A stretch of DNA of 64,000 nt from Alphaproteobacteria bacterium (GCA_018969425.1 JAGWYJ010000002.1:62001-126000), one strand, 5' to 3'. Counted from the stretch's first letter, positions 20,617-31,643 are shown. Notes: generated by a model from the letters alone, not told the origin. Program-made: numbers and translations.

Positions 20617-21648
20617 TCACGGGGAGACGATCTCATCCACGAGGCCGGAGGCGGTGAGTTCGAATGCGAGCTTGGTGTCGGGTCGGATGAACATCCGAGT
20701 GACCCCTTCCCGAGCAAGTCGCTTGAGAGCGACCCCATGATCCTCCCCTGGGACGGGTTCGAAGGCCCGATCGTACCGGCTTGGATCCATGTCGATTGCG
20801 AGCCACGGAAGGCCAGTGCGGATCACCTTGAAGAAGCCGCAATTGACCGTCTGGGCCTCGTCTCGCATCAGACCAAGAGACGTATCGACGCCCGACGCTG
20901 TCAGGTACGTTAGTCCATGGGCGGCGAAGGGGTGCGGATCTTCGCAAGCCGCATGCAACCTTGCGACTTTGGCCTCTGCCAGGACGTGGGAGCAGCTCGG
21001 TCGTCCCGCTGTTCTCTGGCCGCATGGGGCAAGGGTCACGAAGACCTCTCCGCCAAACACCTCTTCGCCCGCGTCGACGACAGCGATCTCTTCTGCATGA
21101 GGTCGTCCGCCATAGCCGGTTGCCCCCTCGCCGATCAGTTGTCCGCCTTTGACGATGACGCAGCCGACCGCGGGGTTCGGTGCGACCTTTCCCATCTGTC
21201 GGCGAGCCAGCGCAAGCGCCCGGTTCATCCAGTCTTCTGCGGTGAATTGAGGCGTGCGCAGCGACTCAGGAGTGAGATTTGGAGGATCGTCGGCGATACG
21301 TTTGAACAGGTCTTCTACGGCGCTCGATGTGATTTCCCCTCCTGTGGAGGGCAGATCATGAACAATCCGGCCATTGAGCATAACCAGTCTCCTGGCGTCT
21401 GCGGAGACAGTTTCGTCAAACGTCTGCTCTACCAAAACGATCGTCGTATTCTGAAAAGCCGCCGACAGTTTGACCAGGGTTTCAATATCTGAGGAGCGCG
21501 ATCGGGGTCGGCTGCTCAGAAAATACGACAGCGGGCTGCCCGGAGGCGTCTGCCGCGCCGCTGGAACCGCACCTAGGTCCGCGCGAATTCTCGGGGCCAG
21601 GTCCGGAGATCCATGTGCGATAACCCATGAGCCTTTAGAGCGCCTCAT
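20617..21648 (-). CDS. RibD-type cytidine-deaminase-like protein with atypical N-terminal region and shortened reductase-like C-terminus
   Basis: [27 protein letters not shown] (HAE), [13 protein letters not shown] zinc motif; about 120 aa N-terminal extension; ATGA overlap with gpmA. Confidence 0.75.
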
Positions 21649-22402: not shown

Positions 22403-23536
22403 CTAGGGAGTTGGGGAAGCAGCAGCTGCGGACGAGGCGGCTCCTGATATCTCGCCGGCCATCTGGACGCCAGAGTTACCCTCGCGTCTTTGATAGGCGG
22501 CCACCAGCGCGGAGTAGGGAGGAGCGTACTGCCAGCCCGCTTCGGTCGTGTTCACTTTGATCTCGAAGTGAAGATGAAGAGTGGTGGGCGTTCCCCCGAA
22601 ATCGTTCGATACATATCCGATGACCTCACCTTTGCGGACGGCTTGTCCGGTTGTCACATGCAGGCGCGACATGTTCAGGTGAAGGTAGCGATAAATCCGC
22701 CCGCCGCTTGAAGCTCTTAGGGTCACGGAATAACTGCCGACATTGGAAACGACGCCGTCCTCTACGGCGACGACTGGATACCTCACTCTTTGGTCGGCTG
22801 GCAGACGCCGTTCCTCGCTGCAACCCTCCGGAGTTCCAACCCGAATATCCTGACCGAGGTGAACGCCCTTAAGAGCGCACCACGGTGTCGCTGCGGAGGT
22901 GGAACGCGTTTCACAGTAATTGTCTCTCCAGGGAGCGGAGAAGTTACGCGGATCGCACTGGTCGCCCCCTTTTAGGCCGCCTCCATAACGGTAGACTTGG
23001 GATTGCAGCACAGCCGGATCGCTTCGGATCGGGAAGACGATGTCAGGAGCGAGATTGGCGGTTTCCACAGCGCCCTGTCCGCTGCTGGGCTCGAGAGCTC
23101 CAGGGGGATTATAGTAGAAGGTCGGCGGCGGGGCCGGCGGCGGCGCAGGAGAGGCCTCTGGCGGCGGCGGGCCAGGTTCCCCGGAAGGGGCAGGTTCGGG
23201 CGGCGGCTGGGGTGTAGGGGCGGGGACAGCCGTGTCGCTGATCGGAAGCGCCTCGTTCACCGGGAGTTCCGGAAAAGGTGTTCCGTTTTCGGGAGCGCCG
23301 GCATTGGCGTCCGGGTTGATCGCGGGAGGCGCCGAAGGAGGTGGTGGAAGGATCTCGCCGCCCGGCGCCTCAGCGCCGGGCGCGGGGTCGACGACCTGCG
23401 AGGATTCGGCCGCCGGCTGATTGTCCACCCAGGGCCAGAGCACGCCGCTTGGAACATCGCAGGATGACAGCGTGACGCAAGCCGCAGGAAAGATTGCTAG
23501 GCCTAAACGCCTGACCGTCTCACGCCACATGACCAT
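22403..23536 (-). CDS. M23 family peptidoglycan metallopeptidase, putative lipoprotein with long Pro-rich linker
   Basis: Lipobox TLSSC; HLGQDIRVG (HxxxD) and LHLHFEIKV (HxH); linker PPPEPAPSGEPGPPPPEASPAPPPAPPP. Confidence 0.9.
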   Translation of the reverse strand: MVMWRETVRRLGLAIFPAACVTLSSCDVPSGVLWPWVDNQPAAESSQVVDPAPGAEAPGGEILPPPPSAPPAINPDANAGAPENGTPFPELPVNEALPISDTAVPAPTPQPPPEPAPSGEPGPPPPEASPAPPPAPPPTFYYNPPGALEPSSGQGAVETANLAPDIVFPIRSDPAVLQSQVYRYGGGLKGGDQCDPRNFSAPWRDNYCETRSTSAATPWCALKGVHLGQDIRVGTPEGCSEERRLPADQRVRYPVVAVEDGVVSNVGSYSVTLRASSGGRIYRYLHLNMSRLHVTTGQAVRKGEVIGYVSNDFGGTPTTLHLHFEIKVNTTEAGWQYAPPYSALVAAYQRREGNSGVQMAGEISGAASSAAAASPTP

Positions 23537-23566
23537 GTTCTTTCGCCTCGGCTCCGCGTGGGATCC

Positions 23567-24169
23567 TTACTGGGTTTGCGACACGAACAGACTATCGGCG
23601 AACGCCTTCGCCTCATCCTCCGATATGCAGCTCTCCGCCGCATCAATTTGTCGACATTCAAATTCAATGAGATAATCAGCTCCGAACCGAGAGAAGGAAA
23701 GCTGGGCGCTGGCTTCTCCGAGTGTAAAGGCCATGTCAGGGCGGGCGGATCCGTCTGATACCCCGGCGGAATAGGCTTTCTTGGTTCCGTTCACAATCGC
23801 GTCGTACCGGGGTGTCTGGTAGGTTGCAAAGTATCCGTCAGGCGTCGCGACCAGGGCCGGCGGACGGGCGTCCTGAGCCTGAACAATCCCGGAGGGAAGA
23901 AGGACCGGGACCTGAGGAAGACCACCTTGTCCGGTGACGGACTGAATGGTGACCGCCGAGTCGGTTGCAGGGCCTGCAGCCTTCGCCGCTCGCGCCGCCT
24001 CCCAGTCGATTGTCTGGTCCGCCGCCGCTAGAGGACCGGCTGAACCCGCGACCTGGTCCGCAGGCGCTTCCGTCGCGGTCTCTGTCTGCGGTTTGCCGTC
24101 GTCGGGCGCCTTGAGGCAGCCGCCGGTCGCCAAGCCAAGGAGGCAAACGATCAAGGAAGCACGTCTCAT
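23567..24169 (-). CDS. Putative lipoprotein, unknown function
   Basis: Signal peptide and lipobox ATGGC; ATGA overlap with the upstream gene. Confidence 0.75.
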   Translation of the reverse strand: MRRASLIVCLLGLATGGCLKAPDDGKPQTETATEAPADQVAGSAGPLAAADQTIDWEAARAAKAAGPATDSAVTIQSVTGQGGLPQVPVLLPSGIVQAQDARPPALVATPDGYFATYQTPRYDAIVNGTKKAYSAGVSDGSARPDMAFTLGEASAQLSFSRFGADYLIEFECRQIDAAESCISEDEAKAFADSLFVSQTQ

Positions 24170-24786
24170 TTGTCTCCTCCGGGGTGGGCGGTCATTGTGA
24201 CTTCAGCGTACTCGATATCTGGCGACTTCGTGAGTTTTCGCGCGATTTCCCTCATCTCCTTCGCCCCCATAGGCTTTTTCGAAGATGCATCTGGAACGAG
24301 CACAAGCTCGTTTGAATATGTGACCCGGTCCAGCGTCAGTCCGCTCAGATCAGGGCGCTTCGAGCGTAGTTCGAGAAACGCCTTGCGAGCGGCGATCGGG
24401 TTTTTCCAGAACTGGTCGATGATGGGCTTCACCCGAGCGTCATTCTTAAACTTCACGACCATTTCAGGTGAGATCGATAGGTTCGCCGGAGCGCCCTGAT
24501 CTGACGCGATCCCGGGGAGATCAGCGGGTGAGGGGCCTTGCGCGAACACCGGAGAGGGCGAAGGCGGCGCGGGCGAAAGCGCCGCCGGCGCCTCGGCTAC
24601 GGGCCCGGCTTCGGAAAGGCTGAGCTTTTTGTCGTGAGCCGACAGGATCGACCCACCGACGAGCACGCTGATGATCGCGACAGCCGCGGCGGCCGGACCT
24701 ATGACCCCGTTGTCCTGCGCACCTTCACCATCCGGCACCTCAACCCCCTTCGTTCGCATATTGCCGCGCCATGATGGCGGGCTCAC
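24166..24786 (-). CDS. Membrane-anchored protein with S8 propeptide/inhibitor I9-like C-terminal region
   Basis: One TM segment (GPAAAAVAIISVLVGGSIL), Pro-rich spacer, then MVVKFKND...LTLDRVTYSNELVLVPDASS...EMREIARKLTKSPDIEYAEVTM, the pattern of S8 propeptides; ATGA overlap with the S8 protease gene. Confidence 0.65.
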   Translation of the reverse strand: MSPPSWRGNMRTKGVEVPDGEGAQDNGVIGPAAAAVAIISVLVGGSILSAHDKKLSLSEAGPVAEAPAALSPAPPSPSPVFAQGPSPADLPGIASDQGAPANLSISPEMVVKFKNDARVKPIIDQFWKNPIAARKAFLELRSKRPDLSGLTLDRVTYSNELVLVPDASSKKPMGAKEMREIARKLTKSPDIEYAEVTMTAHPGGDK

Positions 24787-27080
24787 TGCATTTGTGCATT
24801 GCCAAGGTTAAGCATAATCCCTCCGCAGGGCCTTGAACACTGGCCAGACTGGCCAGGAATAGGCTGCGACCCGGGATAACTGGAACACGCGCCCGAGCAC
24901 TGAAGGGGCGTTCGAGGGCTGGATGCCGTCAGAAGCCGACTTCTGAGCTCTGAGGGCACGGCTGAAGGATATCTCGCCTTAAGGAGGGCAAGGGCGGCGC
25001 TGACATGCGGCGCAGCCATGGAGGTTCCGTTTTCGTAAGCGTAGAAACACTCCGCCACGCTCACGCCGGGGGAGGCGGGATCATAGCAGTTTCGTGAGAA
25101 CTTGGTGGACAGGATTCCGTCTGGTCGGCCGTCCCCATCGTCGTCTCGCGTCATGTCGCCTCCCGGCGCCATGATGTCGACATCCGCGCCGTAGTTGGAG
25201 TAGGGGGCAAGCATTCCTCTGCCATCTCCAGCAGCGACAGATATGACGTTCTGACACCCTCCGGGTGCGAAATATCGCGTGTCGATTCGAGCGTTGCCAG
25301 CCGCTGCGACGACTATGGATCCGGCTGCGACGGCGTCATTGATGGCGGATTGCATGGACGCCGGACAGGGTTCGAAAAGTCCGATCGAGAGATTGATGAT
25401 ATCCGCCGGATTCTGGTTCCAGACCTCATTACCAAGTCCGTCCCGGGCCGGGACCCGACCCGCCGCCCAGCGAATGGCGTCGTTGATATCCGACAGCCGA
25501 CCGCCGCATCGGCCAAGAGCTCTCACGGGAACGATTGTTACGTCCCACGCTCCGCCGGCCACCCCGTTAGCGTTGTTGGAGGAGGCGAGGCCGATCGTGC
25601 CCGCTACATGGGTTCCGTGGAAGGTATCTCGAGAGGTCGGGTCGCTGGGGTCGCACCGGTCTCCCGGATCATTGGGGTCTGGGTCGCGGCCGTCGCCGTC
25701 ATTACCCATCATGGGATCAGACACCATGTCGAATCCGGGTGCGAGGTTTCGGGAACCGGAGATATCCGGGTGACTCATCTGAATTCCGGTGTCGATGACC
25801 GCGACGGTCACCGATCTAGACCCTGTGGAGCGTGCGCGCGTCCAGAAGCCTGAAAATCCTGCTCCCCCCGGGGATTGTCCTCCCGCTGCTCCCGTATCCT
25901 TGAGGTTCCACTGAAGGCCGAAAAGGGGGTCGTTGGGTACGATCCGCGCGACGGTCGCTGCGCCTGGCTGCGCTGCGTTAGGCCGCTTCAAAAGCTGGTT
26001 AGTAAAAATGAAGTCCTTCTCGACATACTCATAGTCGCCCGTCTCCATGAGAACCTTAACCACACATTCTGTCGCCAGAACCGGATCGGCCTGCAGGGCT
26101 GAACGGGTGGGGTTTTGACGGCACTCGTCCTCCGGACTCTCCTTATTCCTGGCGAACAGTTCGCTCATCTGCGGCACGCTTGCGAGGTCAGCTCCCGGCC
26201 GAAATTGGGTTGGTGAAACCCCGATGACGATCCTCATCTGTCCGCCTTCCTCGGGGACCACCACTCCCGACAGTCCGAGCTCCTCAAGCTTTGAGTATGC
26301 CTGCTCGCGGGCATTCAGCGCCGCGTTTAAGTCAAGCTTGTTGCGGACCGCCAGCTCACGAGGAACAGGCGCTTTGCGATCCAGGTTTTGTCGAGCTATG
26401 CCGTCGCCGATCTGTTGAGCGGTCCGGGTGTTCGCCTTCAAGGTCTCTTCAGCAGACCGACGGGCAAGGCGAACCGTATCTTCCGTGACCTTCACCCCTG
26501 ACTGTCGCGCCGCCTTTTCAAGCGAACGAGATACCGCCTGGTCCTTTCTAAGGACGGCGTCCGGGGCCGGGCGCGACAGGGCCGGCGAAGGGCGACGAAG
26601 CGCCCCCGGAATGTCTGCGGTCCGAGGAGTCGCGTCGCTGGTCGGATCATCCAGAGCAGGGCTCACCGGCTCGACGGCGTCAACCGCCGGGTCCGTTTCC
26701 TCCTGCGCGGCTAGAGCTGGGTCAGCCGCCTCGACATCGAAGATCTCCGGCTCAACCGCCGGTTCAACAAGATCCGTCTTGGGCTTTGCGATAACCGATC
26801 CTATGGCGAAATAGCTCTCAGCCTGCAGCATGTCCTCGAGACTGACTGGTGTGATCTCGACCGCTGGTTCGACTGTTCCTGCAAGGGCTCGCGCCGCCAG
26901 CGGGGAGGTCTTAAGGGGGTCAGGCGCGGACGGTCCGCCGCCGCCCCCAGACACCTGATCGCCGACCTGCCGGGCCAGTTCAGCAAGCTGGTCGATGCGC
27001 GTCTGCGCAGCTTCACAACCTGCCGTGAGAGACGCCAATGCTAGCGTGACCAAAGCTCCCAAACGCACGCCGTTCGACAT
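24783..27080 (-). CDS. S8 (subtilisin-like) serine protease, putative lipoprotein
   Basis: Catalytic blocks VAVIDTGIQMSHPD, HGTHVAGTIGLA, NGTSMAAPHVSAALALLKA; lipobox SLTAGC; start refined to ATG 27080. Confidence 0.93.
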   Translation of the reverse strand: MSNGVRLGALVTLALASLTAGCEAAQTRIDQLAELARQVGDQVSGGGGGPSAPDPLKTSPLAARALAGTVEPAVEITPVSLEDMLQAESYFAIGSVIAKPKTDLVEPAVEPEIFDVEAADPALAAQEETDPAVDAVEPVSPALDDPTSDATPRTADIPGALRRPSPALSRPAPDAVLRKDQAVSRSLEKAARQSGVKVTEDTVRLARRSAEETLKANTRTAQQIGDGIARQNLDRKAPVPRELAVRNKLDLNAALNAREQAYSKLEELGLSGVVVPEEGGQMRIVIGVSPTQFRPGADLASVPQMSELFARNKESPEDECRQNPTRSALQADPVLATECVVKVLMETGDYEYVEKDFIFTNQLLKRPNAAQPGAATVARIVPNDPLFGLQWNLKDTGAAGGQSPGGAGFSGFWTRARSTGSRSVTVAVIDTGIQMSHPDISGSRNLAPGFDMVSDPMMGNDGDGRDPDPNDPGDRCDPSDPTSRDTFHGTHVAGTIGLASSNNANGVAGGAWDVTIVPVRALGRCGGRLSDINDAIRWAAGRVPARDGLGNEVWNQNPADIINLSIGLFEPCPASMQSAINDAVAAGSIVVAAAGNARIDTRYFAPGGCQNVISVAAGDGRGMLAPYSNYGADVDIMAPGGDMTRDDDGDGRPDGILSTKFSRNCYDPASPGVSVAECFYAYENGTSMAAPHVSAALALLKARYPSAVPSELRSRLLTASSPRTPLQCSGACSSYPGSQPIPGQSGQCSRPCGGIMLNLGNAQMQ

Positions 27081-27754: not shown

Positions 27755-29053
27755 ATGTTGATCGTAGATACCGCATTGGCGAGACGCGCGGCGGAAGGCC
27801 AGCCAGTCCAGGTGGGTCTTTTCGGCGCTGGCTATATGGCCAAGTGCATCGTGAGTCAGGTCGTTCGTCACATGCCGGGCTTGCGTATCGCGGCCATTTG
27901 CAACCGCACCGTCTCGGCAGCTGAGAAAGCCTATCTGGCTGCGGGCGTCGACTGCGAACGGATCGTGACTGTCGGGTCTGCAGGCGCGATGACAGACGCT
28001 CTAAGGGACGGGCGCTTCGCGATCACCGACAATCCCACGCCGCTGTGCGAGGCTGCCGGCATTGATGTGCTCATTGATGCGACTGGTCACGTCGAATACG
28101 GAGCCGGAATAACGCTCGCTGCCATCGCGGCAGGCCGGCACATGGTTAGCATGAACGCTGAGTTGGACGCGACAGTCGGTCCGGAGCTCAAGGCGCGGGC
28201 GGACCGGGCGGGAGTGATCCTGACAGGGTGCGACGGGGATCAGCCGGGGGTTCAGATCAATCTCCTGCGCTTTGTGAAGTCCATCGGCCTGAGGCCTCTG
28301 ATCTGTGGAAACATCAAAGGCCTGCAGGATCGATATAGAACCCCCGAAACTCAGGCGGCTTTTGCTCGTCAGTGGGGACAGACCCCCACCATGGTCACCA
28401 GCTTCGCCGATGGGACAAAGATTTCGATGGAGCAGGCCATCGTCGCAAACGCAACGGGGATGACGGTGGAACGCCGCGGCATGATCGGGCTTCATCATTC
28501 CGGTCATGTTGACGACATGACTGGCCTTTATGACATTGATCGAGTCCGTTCGCTGGGAGGCATCGTGGATTATGTCGTGGGCCCTCGGCCCGGACCAGGC
28601 GTGTTCGTTTTCGCCGAAGCGCAGGACGAATTGCAGAAGCATTACCTGAAATATGGAAAACTTGGCGACGGCCCGCTCTACAGCTTCTACATGCCATGGC
28701 ATCTGACGGCCATCGAAACCCCCCTATCGGCGGCGAGGGTGGTTCTGTTTGAAGACCGGGTGATAGCACCCATCGGTCCGCCGGTGGTTGATGTCGTGGC
28801 GACAGCTAAGACGGATCTTGTTGCCGGCAGCCGGCTCGACGGGCTGGGCGGCTTTATGACTTACGGGCTCTGTGAGAGGTATGACCTTGTTCGTCGGGAC
28901 GATCTTCTCCCGATGGGCTTGGCCGAGGGATGCACCCTGAGGCGAAACATTGCTAAGGATCAGGTTCTGACCTGGTCAGATGTCATTCCGCCATCTTCAA
29001 GCATCGCTCATGAGCTGAGGGGGGCTCAGGACCTTCGCTTTCCGTGCGGATGA
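27755..29053 (+). CDS. NAD(P)-dependent oxidoreductase with C-terminal SAF domain (homoserine dehydrogenase-like)
   Basis: VGLFGAGYMAKCIVSQV Rossmann motif; IDVLIDATGHVEYGA; C-terminal LRRNIAKDQVLTWSDV SAF-like. Confidence 0.85.
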   Translation: MLIVDTALARRAAEGQPVQVGLFGAGYMAKCIVSQVVRHMPGLRIAAICNRTVSAAEKAYLAAGVDCERIVTVGSAGAMTDALRDGRFAITDNPTPLCEAAGIDVLIDATGHVEYGAGITLAAIAAGRHMVSMNAELDATVGPELKARADRAGVILTGCDGDQPGVQINLLRFVKSIGLRPLICGNIKGLQDRYRTPETQAAFARQWGQTPTMVTSFADGTKISMEQAIVANATGMTVERRGMIGLHHSGHVDDMTGLYDIDRVRSLGGIVDYVVGPRPGPGVFVFAEAQDELQKHYLKYGKLGDGPLYSFYMPWHLTAIETPLSAARVVLFEDRVIAPIGPPVVDVVATAKTDLVAGSRLDGLGGFMTYGLCERYDLVRRDDLLPMGLAEGCTLRRNIAKDQVLTWSDVIPPSSSIAHELRGAQDLRFPCG

Positions 29054-29075
29054 GGCGTGAGGGCAACCCACTCTG

Positions 29076-29618
29076 TCAAAACGCGTCACCGTCCGTGAAA
29101 TCCGGCCATCTCGTGTCTCTTTCGGATTGGACCGTGGGGATAAGCGGCCAGCTGATGTCGAAGCGGGAGTCGTTCCATCGGACGCCCACCTCTGCATGCG
29201 GAGCGTAGGCGTTAGAGACGAGATAGGTCACTTCGGTATCGTCTGCCAGGGTCTGGAACCCATGAGCGAAGCCCGTGGGGACATAGAGAATGGCGTGGTT
29301 GGTTTCCGTAAGCTCAAAGCCTTGCCAGCGTCCGTACGTCGCTGAGGACCGACGAAGGTCAATGATGACGTCAAATACCGCGCCGCGAACGCAACGCACC
29401 ACCTTGACCTCGGTATGAGGCGGCCGCTGGAAGTGCATACCTCGAAGCGTGCCTTTCAGGCGAGATCGGGAAGCGTTGTGCTGAACGTACCGAGTCTCCA
29501 GCCCCGAGCTCTCGAACGTCTCTTCACAGAATGTCCGCATGAAGAAACCGCGTTCGTCCCCCTTCGGATCGAGTTCGATCAGGCGGGCGTCAGAGAGGGC
29601 CGTTGGCTTGATCTTCAT
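29076..29618 (-). CDS. RfbC-like dTDP-4-dehydrorhamnose 3,5-epimerase family protein
   Basis: DERGFFMRTFCEETF, QHNASRSRLKGTLRGMHFQRPPHTEVKVVRCVRG, YVPTGFAHGFQTL. Confidence 0.92.
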   Translation of the reverse strand: MKIKPTALSDARLIELDPKGDERGFFMRTFCEETFESSGLETRYVQHNASRSRLKGTLRGMHFQRPPHTEVKVVRCVRGAVFDVIIDLRRSSATYGRWQGFELTETNHAILYVPTGFAHGFQTLADDTEVTYLVSNAYAPHAEVGVRWNDSRFDISWPLIPTVQSERDTRWPDFTDGDAF

Positions 29619-29619
29619 C

Positions 29620-30687
29620 CTAAAGCCTTTGATCGTAGTTCAGGATCTGCTCGTCCATGAGGGCAGGGGCCGTTCCCCTGTCTTCGATCCACCGGCGATA
29701 CCACCCCATAGTCAGCCGGACGGAGGTCTCAAGGTCGGCCGCAGGCGTCCAGCCAAGCTCCGATCCCGCCTTCGATATATCTAGTCTCAACAGCTTCGAC
29801 TCCCGCAACGTGGCTGTTTCGAGCTGGACAGGGTGCTGAGGCCGGCCGATGGCCTTGAGAGCAAGCGAGAGAACCGCCTCCACATTGGACTCGCCAGCAG
29901 GTCCTGGACCGAAATTCCATGCGTCGGACGCCGACCTTCCGTCGGTCGCAAGGCGCTCAGCGAGCACGATGTACGCTCGGCAGAGCTCGAGCACGTGTTG
30001 CCAGGGTCGGACTGACTTCGGTGAACGGATGACGATAGGGCTATCAGCGATAATGCACCGGACAATGTCGGGAATAAGCCGATCCTTGGACCAGTCTCCC
30101 CCTCCGATTACATTTCCGCCCCGAGCGGTGGCCATGTTCGGACCAGACCCGTTCGCCCAGAGATTGTCTCTGTAAACGGCGGCGACGAGCTCGGCCGCAG
30201 CCTTCGACCCGCTGTAGGGGTCATGACCTCCGAGCTGGTCGGTTTCCCGGTAGGGCCACGCCCATTCGTGATTATGATAGACCTTGTCTGTGGTCACGCA
30301 GACTATGGCTTTGACGCCTCCTGCATCGCCCGCAGCCTGAAGGACGTTCGCAGTGCCCATGATGTTAGTGTCGAACGTCTCGAGGGGGCGGGCGTAGGAC
30401 TCCCGGACGAGAGCCTGAGCCGCGAGGTGAAAAATGAAATCCGGACGAAAGTTTTTGATCGCTGAAGCCACAGAGGCGGCGTCGCGGATGTCGACAAAAC
30501 CTGAGTCGATTCTGTCCGCCAGAGCGATATCGTTAAACAGGCTTGGCCGATCAACCGGAGGAGGGAGCGAGAGACCCAGCACATTCGCTCCCATAAGGTG
30601 CAGCCACTGACTAAGCCACGCCCCTTTGAAGCCGGTGTGGCCGGTGACAAGAATACGTGCGTCACGAAAAGTCTTATCGAAATGCAT
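29620..30687 (-). CDS. rfbG: CDP-glucose 4,6-dehydratase
   Basis: ILVTGHTGFKGAWLSQWLHLMGANVLGLSL; YSGSKAAAELV; ARGGNVIGGGDWSKDRLIPD. Confidence 0.93.
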   Translation of the reverse strand: MHFDKTFRDARILVTGHTGFKGAWLSQWLHLMGANVLGLSLPPPVDRPSLFNDIALADRIDSGFVDIRDAASVASAIKNFRPDFIFHLAAQALVRESYARPLETFDTNIMGTANVLQAAGDAGGVKAIVCVTTDKVYHNHEWAWPYRETDQLGGHDPYSGSKAAAELVAAVYRDNLWANGSGPNMATARGGNVIGGGDWSKDRLIPDIVRCIIADSPIVIRSPKSVRPWQHVLELCRAYIVLAERLATDGRSASDAWNFGPGPAGESNVEAVLSLALKAIGRPQHPVQLETATLRESKLLRLDISKAGSELGWTPAADLETSVRLTMGWYRRWIEDRGTAPALMDEQILNYDQRL

Positions 30688-30863
30688 GGATTATGAGGTC
30701 TCGAAAATCTGAGGTCGGTCAAAGACAATAAACGCTCAATGCCTAATTCACCGTTTGTTGGTGGCACAGCGCTTGCCTTGTTCGTCGTGCCTTGGGTCGT
30801 AATTTGGCCGTCTTGGGTTGGGCGTTGACAGGCGATCGGGGCTCGCCATTTGGGGTGGTGATT

Positions 30864-31643
30864 ATGAAAGTCGTTATTTTCGCCGGTGGTTTTGGAACGC
30901 GCCTGAGTGAGGAAACCAGCATCAAGCCCAAGCCGATGGTGGAAATAGGCGGGCGCCCGATCTTATGGCACATTATGAGCTCATATGCATCTTATGGTCT
31001 GACCGACTTCGTTGTTCTGGGCGGATATAAGGTTGACGCCATTCGCCGGTACTTTCTCGATTACCATCGTCTGTCCGGCGACTTCACCATTGATCTCCAT
31101 TCGGGCGAAATCGTCTGGTCTCGGTCAATTGTGCCGCCCTGGCGTGTCACGATTTTAGACACTGGCGTGGACACAATGACGGGCGGTCGTCTTCGTCGCG
31201 CGAGAGACGTGATCGGAGACGAACCCTTCTGTCTGACATATGGCGACGGTCTGAGCGATGTGAACATCGCCGAACTCATCCGGTTCCATCGTGAGCAGAA
31301 ATGTCTCGCGACGGTGACGGCGGTCGCTCCGCCGGGGCGATTCGGGGTGCTGGGCTTCTCTCCTGATGGCGCCCGGATCACCTCTTTTCGGGAGAAGGAC
31401 AGTAAAGACGTCGGACTGATAAACGGCGGCTTCTTTGTCTGTGAGCCTCAGGTCATCGATCTGGTGGAGGGAGATTCGACTGTCTGGGAGCAGGAGCCAA
31501 TGAACCGTCTCGTCGAGATGGGTCAGCTTTCGGCCTATCGCCATAGCGGGTTCTGGCAGGCGATGGATACGCTCAGGGATAAGGCCGTACTCGAGGCCGC
31601 TTGGTCCGGGGGCGCGCCTTGGATGGTCGGGTCGCGAGCTTGA
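30864..31643 (+). CDS. rfbF: Glucose-1-phosphate cytidylyltransferase
   Basis: MKVVIFAGGFGTRLSEETSIKPKPMVEIGGRPILWHIM; LTYGDGLSDV; start refined to ATG 30864. Confidence 0.95.
   Translation: MKVVIFAGGFGTRLSEETSIKPKPMVEIGGRPILWHIMSSYASYGLTDFVVLGGYKVDAIRRYFLDYHRLSGDFTIDLHSGEIVWSRSIVPPWRVTILDTGVDTMTGGRLRRARDVIGDEPFCLTYGDGLSDVNIAELIRFHREQKCLATVTAVAPPGRFGVLGFSPDGARITSFREKDSKDVGLINGGFFVCEPQVIDLVEGDSTVWEQEPMNRLVEMGQLSAYRHSGFWQAMDTLRDKAVLEAAWSGGAPWMVGSRA

Follow-up and report, generated by a model that had tools for sequence, protein, structure and literature searches.

It is not yet settled how bacteria turn on cell-wall endopeptidases while avoiding their own lysis. Stand-alone inhibitors resembling subtilisin propeptides (MEROPS I9) include POIA1, the yeast proteinase B inhibitor and Arabidopsis SPI-1, as well as Plasmodium SUB1-ProM and Toxoplasma MIC5, and propeptide-like proteins encoded beside subtilase genes inhibit those subtilases (PMC6993865). 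The dentilisin operon PrcB-PrcA-PrtP of Treponema denticola encodes an acylated S8 subtilase, PrtP, with the lipid on its prosegment, and partner lipoproteins; PrtP cuts the lipoprotein PrcA and needs the lipoprotein PrcB (PMC8167434). The M23 enzyme LytM stays latent as long as its inhibitory N-terminal region has not been cleaved (PMC4594094). LmdC of Hyphomonas neptunium, another M23/LytM endopeptidase, is a membrane protein with one transmembrane (TM) helix and coiled coils, encoded in an operon with the bactofilin BacA (PMC10945521). Here we describe a locus of four genes, A, B, C and D (Table 1), in a genome of the Hyphomonadaceae, a family that includes stalked budding bacteria, in which wall growth must be spatially confined. 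The locus was read in a window of 64,000 nt, by which we mean the whole stretch of DNA analysed (positions 62001-126000 of one contig in a 3.2 Mb assembly of 91 contigs); the nearest relatives of the host genome are metagenome assemblies bearing the same family name. An earlier note on this DNA had read the locus as a minus-strand string encoding an S8 protease, an I9-like membrane protein, a lipoprotein and an M23 endopeptidase, and all four open reading frames (ORFs) are present. The locus is a potential one-operon switch comprising a protease, its likely restraint, a wall enzyme and the partner of that wall enzyme.

The combination had not been recognised as a named system, and we likewise found none matching the A-B-C-D set in Pfam, NCBIfam, PADLOC or the literature searched. 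We therefore regard it as a new combination of known kinds of part. B resembles the MEROPS I9 inhibitors in fold topology and in being a separate gene beside a subtilase gene at a syntenic locus, but it is membrane-anchored, bacterial and only weakly similar in sequence, the examples of PMC6993865 are eukaryotic, and inhibition by B is putative. A and its neighbours resemble dentilisin as an operon of a lipid-modified subtilase with lipoproteins; however, A scored 42.9 bits against the PrtP model NF033595 (cut-off 300), dentilisin is without an M23 partner and the predicted membrane differs. Mycosin, the subtilase of type VII secretion, is also a membrane-tethered S8 protease, but A reached 107.3 bits against its model (TIGR03921, cut-off 278.75) and no annotated neighbour resembles a type VII secretion gene. 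SprP of Pseudomonas aeruginosa, a Gram-negative S8 protease with an exported N-terminal extra domain, can be likened to A by description only, and in the summary passage of PMC3937732 considered here no prodomain-like or M23 partner is mentioned. D shares the M23 fold motifs and all zinc and catalytic residues with MepM, ShyC, Pgp3, LmdC and DipM, but differs in its lipid anchor and proline-rich tether, in a conserved pre-domain that bears cysteines, and in having C as an obligate partner. Its matches to MepM, Pgp3 and ShyC are weak and far under the cut-offs; against the models of named endopeptidases (MepM, ShyA, ShyC and DipM) it scored about 25 bits at most, where the cut-offs are 300-700. 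On these curated model scores the identities dentilisin, mycosin, MepM, ShyA/C and DipM were ruled out. A part in anti-phage defence was also rejected, as in PADLOC the generic S8 domain alone gave matches (PDLC03014 subtilase, IetS), with none for B, C or D.

Conservation of the locus was followed in two samples, the first of 61 relatives, 37 of them Hyphomonadaceae, and the second order-wide, with 55 genomes of the family. Of the 37 family genomes, an identical set of 30 holds A, C and D, and the remaining seven hold none of the three. Pairwise searching detected B in 27 of these 30, and a profile placed it between A and C in the other three. The order A-B-C-D is identical in 26 complete loci, with four more cut by contig ends; in each Hyphomonadaceae locus read B separates A from C, and gene order never varies. 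Far beyond chance, then, the four genes form a conserved unit. The earlier note had staked its proposal on precisely this point, namely that the genes should be kept together beyond the strain of the window, and for the Hyphomonadaceae they are. In the second sample 45 genomes hold both B and C, four hold B only, six hold neither and none holds C only, such that C-D was never seen without A-B within the family (0/55). D seemed to be missing in one genome (G438), but the contig there ends inside the gene. A tree of A splits along families f1 and f3, although its deep branches are unsure; as the tree follows families, it gives no hint that the co-conservation stems from transfer.

The single string of the earlier note thus holds as a conserved unit within the family, but it consists of two separable modules, each of which occurs alone elsewhere. 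A-B is found without C-D in family f3 (L084, L085, L086, L087 and L096), where the exceptions are one genome with all four genes adjacent (G058, locus L067) and another with A-B on one contig and D on a different one (G531). Conversely, C-D is found without A-B in families f2, f4 and f5 and in other orders of alphaproteobacteria. Neither module therefore needs the other in general, and this distribution of genes indicates that two modules, A-B and C-D, have been joined at the locus. In the four B-only genomes (G016, G025 and G031 of genus g3, and G539 of another genus) neither the S8 domain nor C nor D is left anywhere in the genome, which amounts to at least two events (g3 and G539), and this joint loss supports a functional tie between the S8 domain and C-D. 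What is left beside the intact B is a lipoprotein stub of ~60 aa holding only the lipobox of A and the RxERAxxLxxxVxDQ-like segment that follows it. Stub and B have diverged yet are conserved between G016 and G025, so that this is not a fresh wreck; the stub is possibly a functional mini-A working with B.

Table 1. Genes and junctions of the locus (window positions) and remnants of gene A in other genomes (positions within each locus).
Feature	Position	Strand	Basis
Gene A: lipid-anchored S8 subtilase, 780 aa	24783..27125	-	PF00082 E 3.8e-54, lipobox, invariant catalytic residues
Gene B: bitopic membrane protein, 206 aa, TM 32-50	24166..24786	-	AlphaFold2 model, position after A
Gene C: 200-aa lipoprotein (TGGC/L)	23567..24169	-	conserved beside D, fused to D in 3 genomes
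Gene D: lipid-anchored M23 endopeptidase, 377 aa (LSSC/D)	22403..23536	-	PF01551 E 7e-12, motifs invariant
A-B junction: GTGA overlap, lineage-specific (2/31 loci)	24783..24786	-	sequence, comparison of loci
B-C junction: 4-bp ATGA stop/start overlap after GGAGGAG; meeting point of two modules	24166..24169	-	
A stubs next to B	L081:7418-7603, L082:6165-6347, L083:5769-6158, L092:6707-6976		genomes without S8 domain, C and D

Turning to the parts of the first module, A belongs to Peptidase_S8 and carries the catalytic triad and oxyanion Asn of that family, residues D445, H503, N611 and S702 being intact and invariant in an alignment with 23 relatives. The likely start is the ATG at 27080, which the earlier note had used, within a longer ORF to 27125. 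A lipobox (TAGC/E) is followed by a conserved amphipathic segment, a linker, A's own prodomain-like region (~285-390), the catalytic domain (~396-737) and a tail, in which four invariant cysteines (C743, C747, C763 and C767, within 743-767) likely form disulphides or a metal site. Among solved structures, A is nearest to the Pseudoalteromonas arctica protease (5yl7, E 5e-61) and to Dichelobacter AprV2/AprB2.

B has one TM segment and a C-terminal domain (residues 100-202) modelled by AlphaFold2 as beta-alpha-alpha-beta-beta-alpha-beta, a ferredoxin-like topology, with pLDDT mostly >90 over ~110-200. A library scan gave no family match for B itself and a profile search of the PDB with B found nothing; however, 10 of 24 B relatives weakly match PF22148 (Fervidolysin_NPro-like; best E 2e-4), one of them above the Pfam cut-off when scanned singly. 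The description of B as I9-like thus survives on the fold topology and on these weak matches of relatives, and not on any match of the window protein, and we consider it probable from the model that B is of the stand-alone subtilisin prodomain type, which makes it a candidate bacterial stand-alone prodomain-like regulator. An origin of B by duplication of A's prodomain was not supported, as a profile comparison of B with that region of A gave a match of just 25 columns with a probability of 9%. B-like proteins also occur as orphans with no S8 gene (L063:7858-8340, L088:6898-7422, L089:7013-7507, L090:6199-6693, L091:6804-7322 and L094:1441-1866). At the first three of these, where neighbours were read, the gene lies near small exported proteins rich in Met, His and Cys, which have a metal-related look, and at L089 a Rieske protein is also nearby. 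The prodomain-like fold may have been put to another use at orphan loci.

In the second module, D belongs to Peptidase_M23, its match lying above the cut-off. Residues H226, D230, H286, H321 and H323 are intact, and the HxGxD, YLH and HLH motifs are invariant among 27 relatives; the earlier statement that the catalytic residues of both enzymes are intact is therefore borne out. Behind the lipobox D has a proline-rich tether (33% Pro over residues 27-150), then the pre-domain mentioned above and the C-terminal M23 domain. C has a conserved C-terminal beta-rich domain with two invariant cysteines (C172 and C181). No Pfam or NCBIfam family matched C and a PDB profile search with it found nothing; its fold model was too poor for a structure search (pLDDT 39). 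C adjoins D in Hyphomonadaceae loci and in C-D-only genomes, always adjacent in the loci read, and in three genomes (L078, L098 and L099) the two are one protein, C first, a fusion that strongly indicates joint action of the pair. C is an obligate partner of D in these arrangements, and it represents a family without described function in the libraries used, an uncharacterised partner of a widespread alphaproteobacterial M23 lipoprotein. In three f5 loci (L068:550-7172, L069:6336-14488 and L070:6214-12828) that were read in detail, C-D is preceded, always in one order, by genes for an M16 protease, a MotA/ExbB-like protein and an OmpA-domain protein; this neighbourhood places C-D near the wall and suggests a wall-linked complex. 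Two C homologues of 459-484 aa (L073:5138-6592 and L074:6985-8364), each upstream of a D homologue, have an extra N-terminal domain without a Pfam match. Moreover, tandem C-C-D-C-D arrays, with duplicated C-D pairs and a spare C, were seen in two different families (L079:6192-10325 and L097:4711-9016).

Lipoboxes had been reported at the N-termini of A, C and D, with a single TM segment in B, and all four features are present. Among readable family members the +2 residue of the lipobox is Asp or Glu in 20/20 A and 18/18 D sequences (38/38 together), whereas it is acidic in 0/43 of the outer-membrane lipoproteins BamD and BamE of Hyphomonadaceae (Fisher p 5e-24, uncorrected for kinship of the sequences). 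In E. coli, Asp at +2 retains lipoproteins in the inner membrane. The acidic residues in A and D and the contrast with BamD/BamE therefore speak for the inner membrane and not for the surface; A and D probably stay in the inner membrane, as B does by its TM segment. The +2 residue of C is mostly non-acidic in the genus of the window and Asp in some other genera, and we are unsure of the membrane of C. The expectation that all products face the periplasm or the surface thus holds as regards exposure in the envelope, and is narrowed, for A, B and D, to the inner membrane on its periplasmic side.

Taken together with the described systems, these data lead us to a proposal that we rate somewhat below an even chance, namely that the locus is an envelope operon in which B restrains A and freed A cuts C or the tether of D, switching wall cleavage. 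In the first module A would be lipid-tethered at the inner membrane beside B, whose prodomain-like domain would bind the active site of A and hold it off, as stand-alone subtilisin propeptides do; alternatively, B would keep mature A at the membrane once A has removed its own lipid-anchored prosegment. The second module would be a two-part peptidoglycan endopeptidase, with D on its long inner-membrane tether and C as the obligate partner domain. Once freed from B, A would cut C or the tether of D, whereby wall cleavage by D would be activated, released or shut off. That B inhibits A, that A acts on C or D and that D cuts peptidoglycan are each steps that we infer by analogy; a cascade in which A cleaves C or D would fit the joint loss of the S8 domain and C-D. 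A more specific version, which we hold to be doubtful, is an inner-membrane cascade in which membrane-anchored B gates A, and A in turn controls the two-part endopeptidase by limited cleavage of C or of the tether of D. The two parts would bridge the periplasm, D being held in the inner membrane and C perhaps in the outer one, given its non-acidic +2 residue in the window's genus.

Several observations weigh against this proposal. Many genomes carry C-D but not A-B, and in f3 A-B is found with no C-D. A already has a prodomain-like region of its own, and the Foldseek matches of the B model were generic ferredoxin-like ones, none specific, with a best E of 0.03. B persists beside the short A stub after the protease domain has gone, and orphan B paralogues exist without any A; B must therefore have a role other than inhibiting A in those genomes, beside the stub one that involves A's anchor segment, which weakens a view of B as an inhibitor only. 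Lastly, the Asp +2 rule in Hyphomonadaceae is itself deduced from sequence.

The existence of each module alone elsewhere is also what commends a different account, in which the genes are co-transcribed but have separate duties: A-B would degrade or mature other envelope proteins under the control of B, C-D would remodel peptidoglycan independently, and the operon would merely co-regulate them. The f5 loci, where C-D lies beside the MotA/ExbB-like gene, the OmpA-domain gene and the M16 protease with no S8 gene, agree with this; however, C-D never stands without A-B in the Hyphomonadaceae, and the S8 domain was lost along with C-D at least twice whilst B was kept, and we consider separate duties unlikely, though worth keeping in view. 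An assembled protease of the dentilisin kind is improbable. Here B would be a folding chaperone and anchor for A, as PrcB is for PrtP, with C and D as further subunits or substrates, and the complex would act on outside proteins; the known operon pairs an acylated subtilase with two lipoproteins, and in it PrtP cuts PrcA and depends for its expression on PrcB, to which it is bound (PMC8167434), and A does weakly match the PrtP model. That match is far under the cut-off, however, PrcB is described as being without homologs outside oral Treponema (PMC8167434), the acidic +2 residues speak against placing A and D in the outer membrane, and dentilisin has no M23 partner. Least probable of all is a lytic or nutritional set, a protease and a LasA-like endopeptidase digesting other bacteria or extracellular material. 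In its favour, the solved structures nearest to A are those of secreted proteases, and the D profile had LasA as one of its few significant matches; against it, both A and D have a lipid anchor with +2 residues that predict inner-membrane retention, and B is an inner-membrane protein.

Whichever duty the operon serves, its junctions differ in how well they are conserved. The earlier note had suggested translational coupling from ATGA overlaps at both A-B and B-C. At A-B the sequence is in fact GTGA, and this overlap is limited to the window genome and its nearest relative; in the other loci B starts between immediately after the A stop and ~100 bp downstream, and the window has a second possible B start, an ATG at +23. 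An overlap in just 2/31 loci argues against conserved coupling, and given the alternative start A-B coupling is not well supported. The B-C overlap, by contrast, does read ATGA, behind a Shine-Dalgarno-like stretch, and is solid, with 4 bp common to 21/31 loci and, in several, a 1-bp overlap possible instead. The spacing of about 30 bp reported for C-D is 30 bp here, and in C-D-only genomes this pair often overlaps by 1-4 bp. Scans of the region for promoters and terminators gave nothing above chance, and operon limits were therefore judged from gene spacing and conservation. Downstream, gpmA (phosphoglycerate mutase) lies 47 bp behind D and overlaps a RibD-like gene by 4 bp, so that the transcript may run on past D.

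The RibD-like deaminase ORF (window 20617-21648) has ~130 extra N-terminal residues compared with its ~214-aa relatives, and this extension shows a faint similarity to ABC ATPases (E 0.03 at best). On the other side of the locus, a homoserine-dehydrogenase-like gene and three sugar-nucleotide genes (rfbC, rfbG and rfbF-like; window 27755-31643 and L037:2677-6565) separate A from a sirtuin-like gene. This arrangement is that of the window genome and its nearest relative, whereas a divergent sirtuin gene within a few hundred bp of A is what many relatives have.

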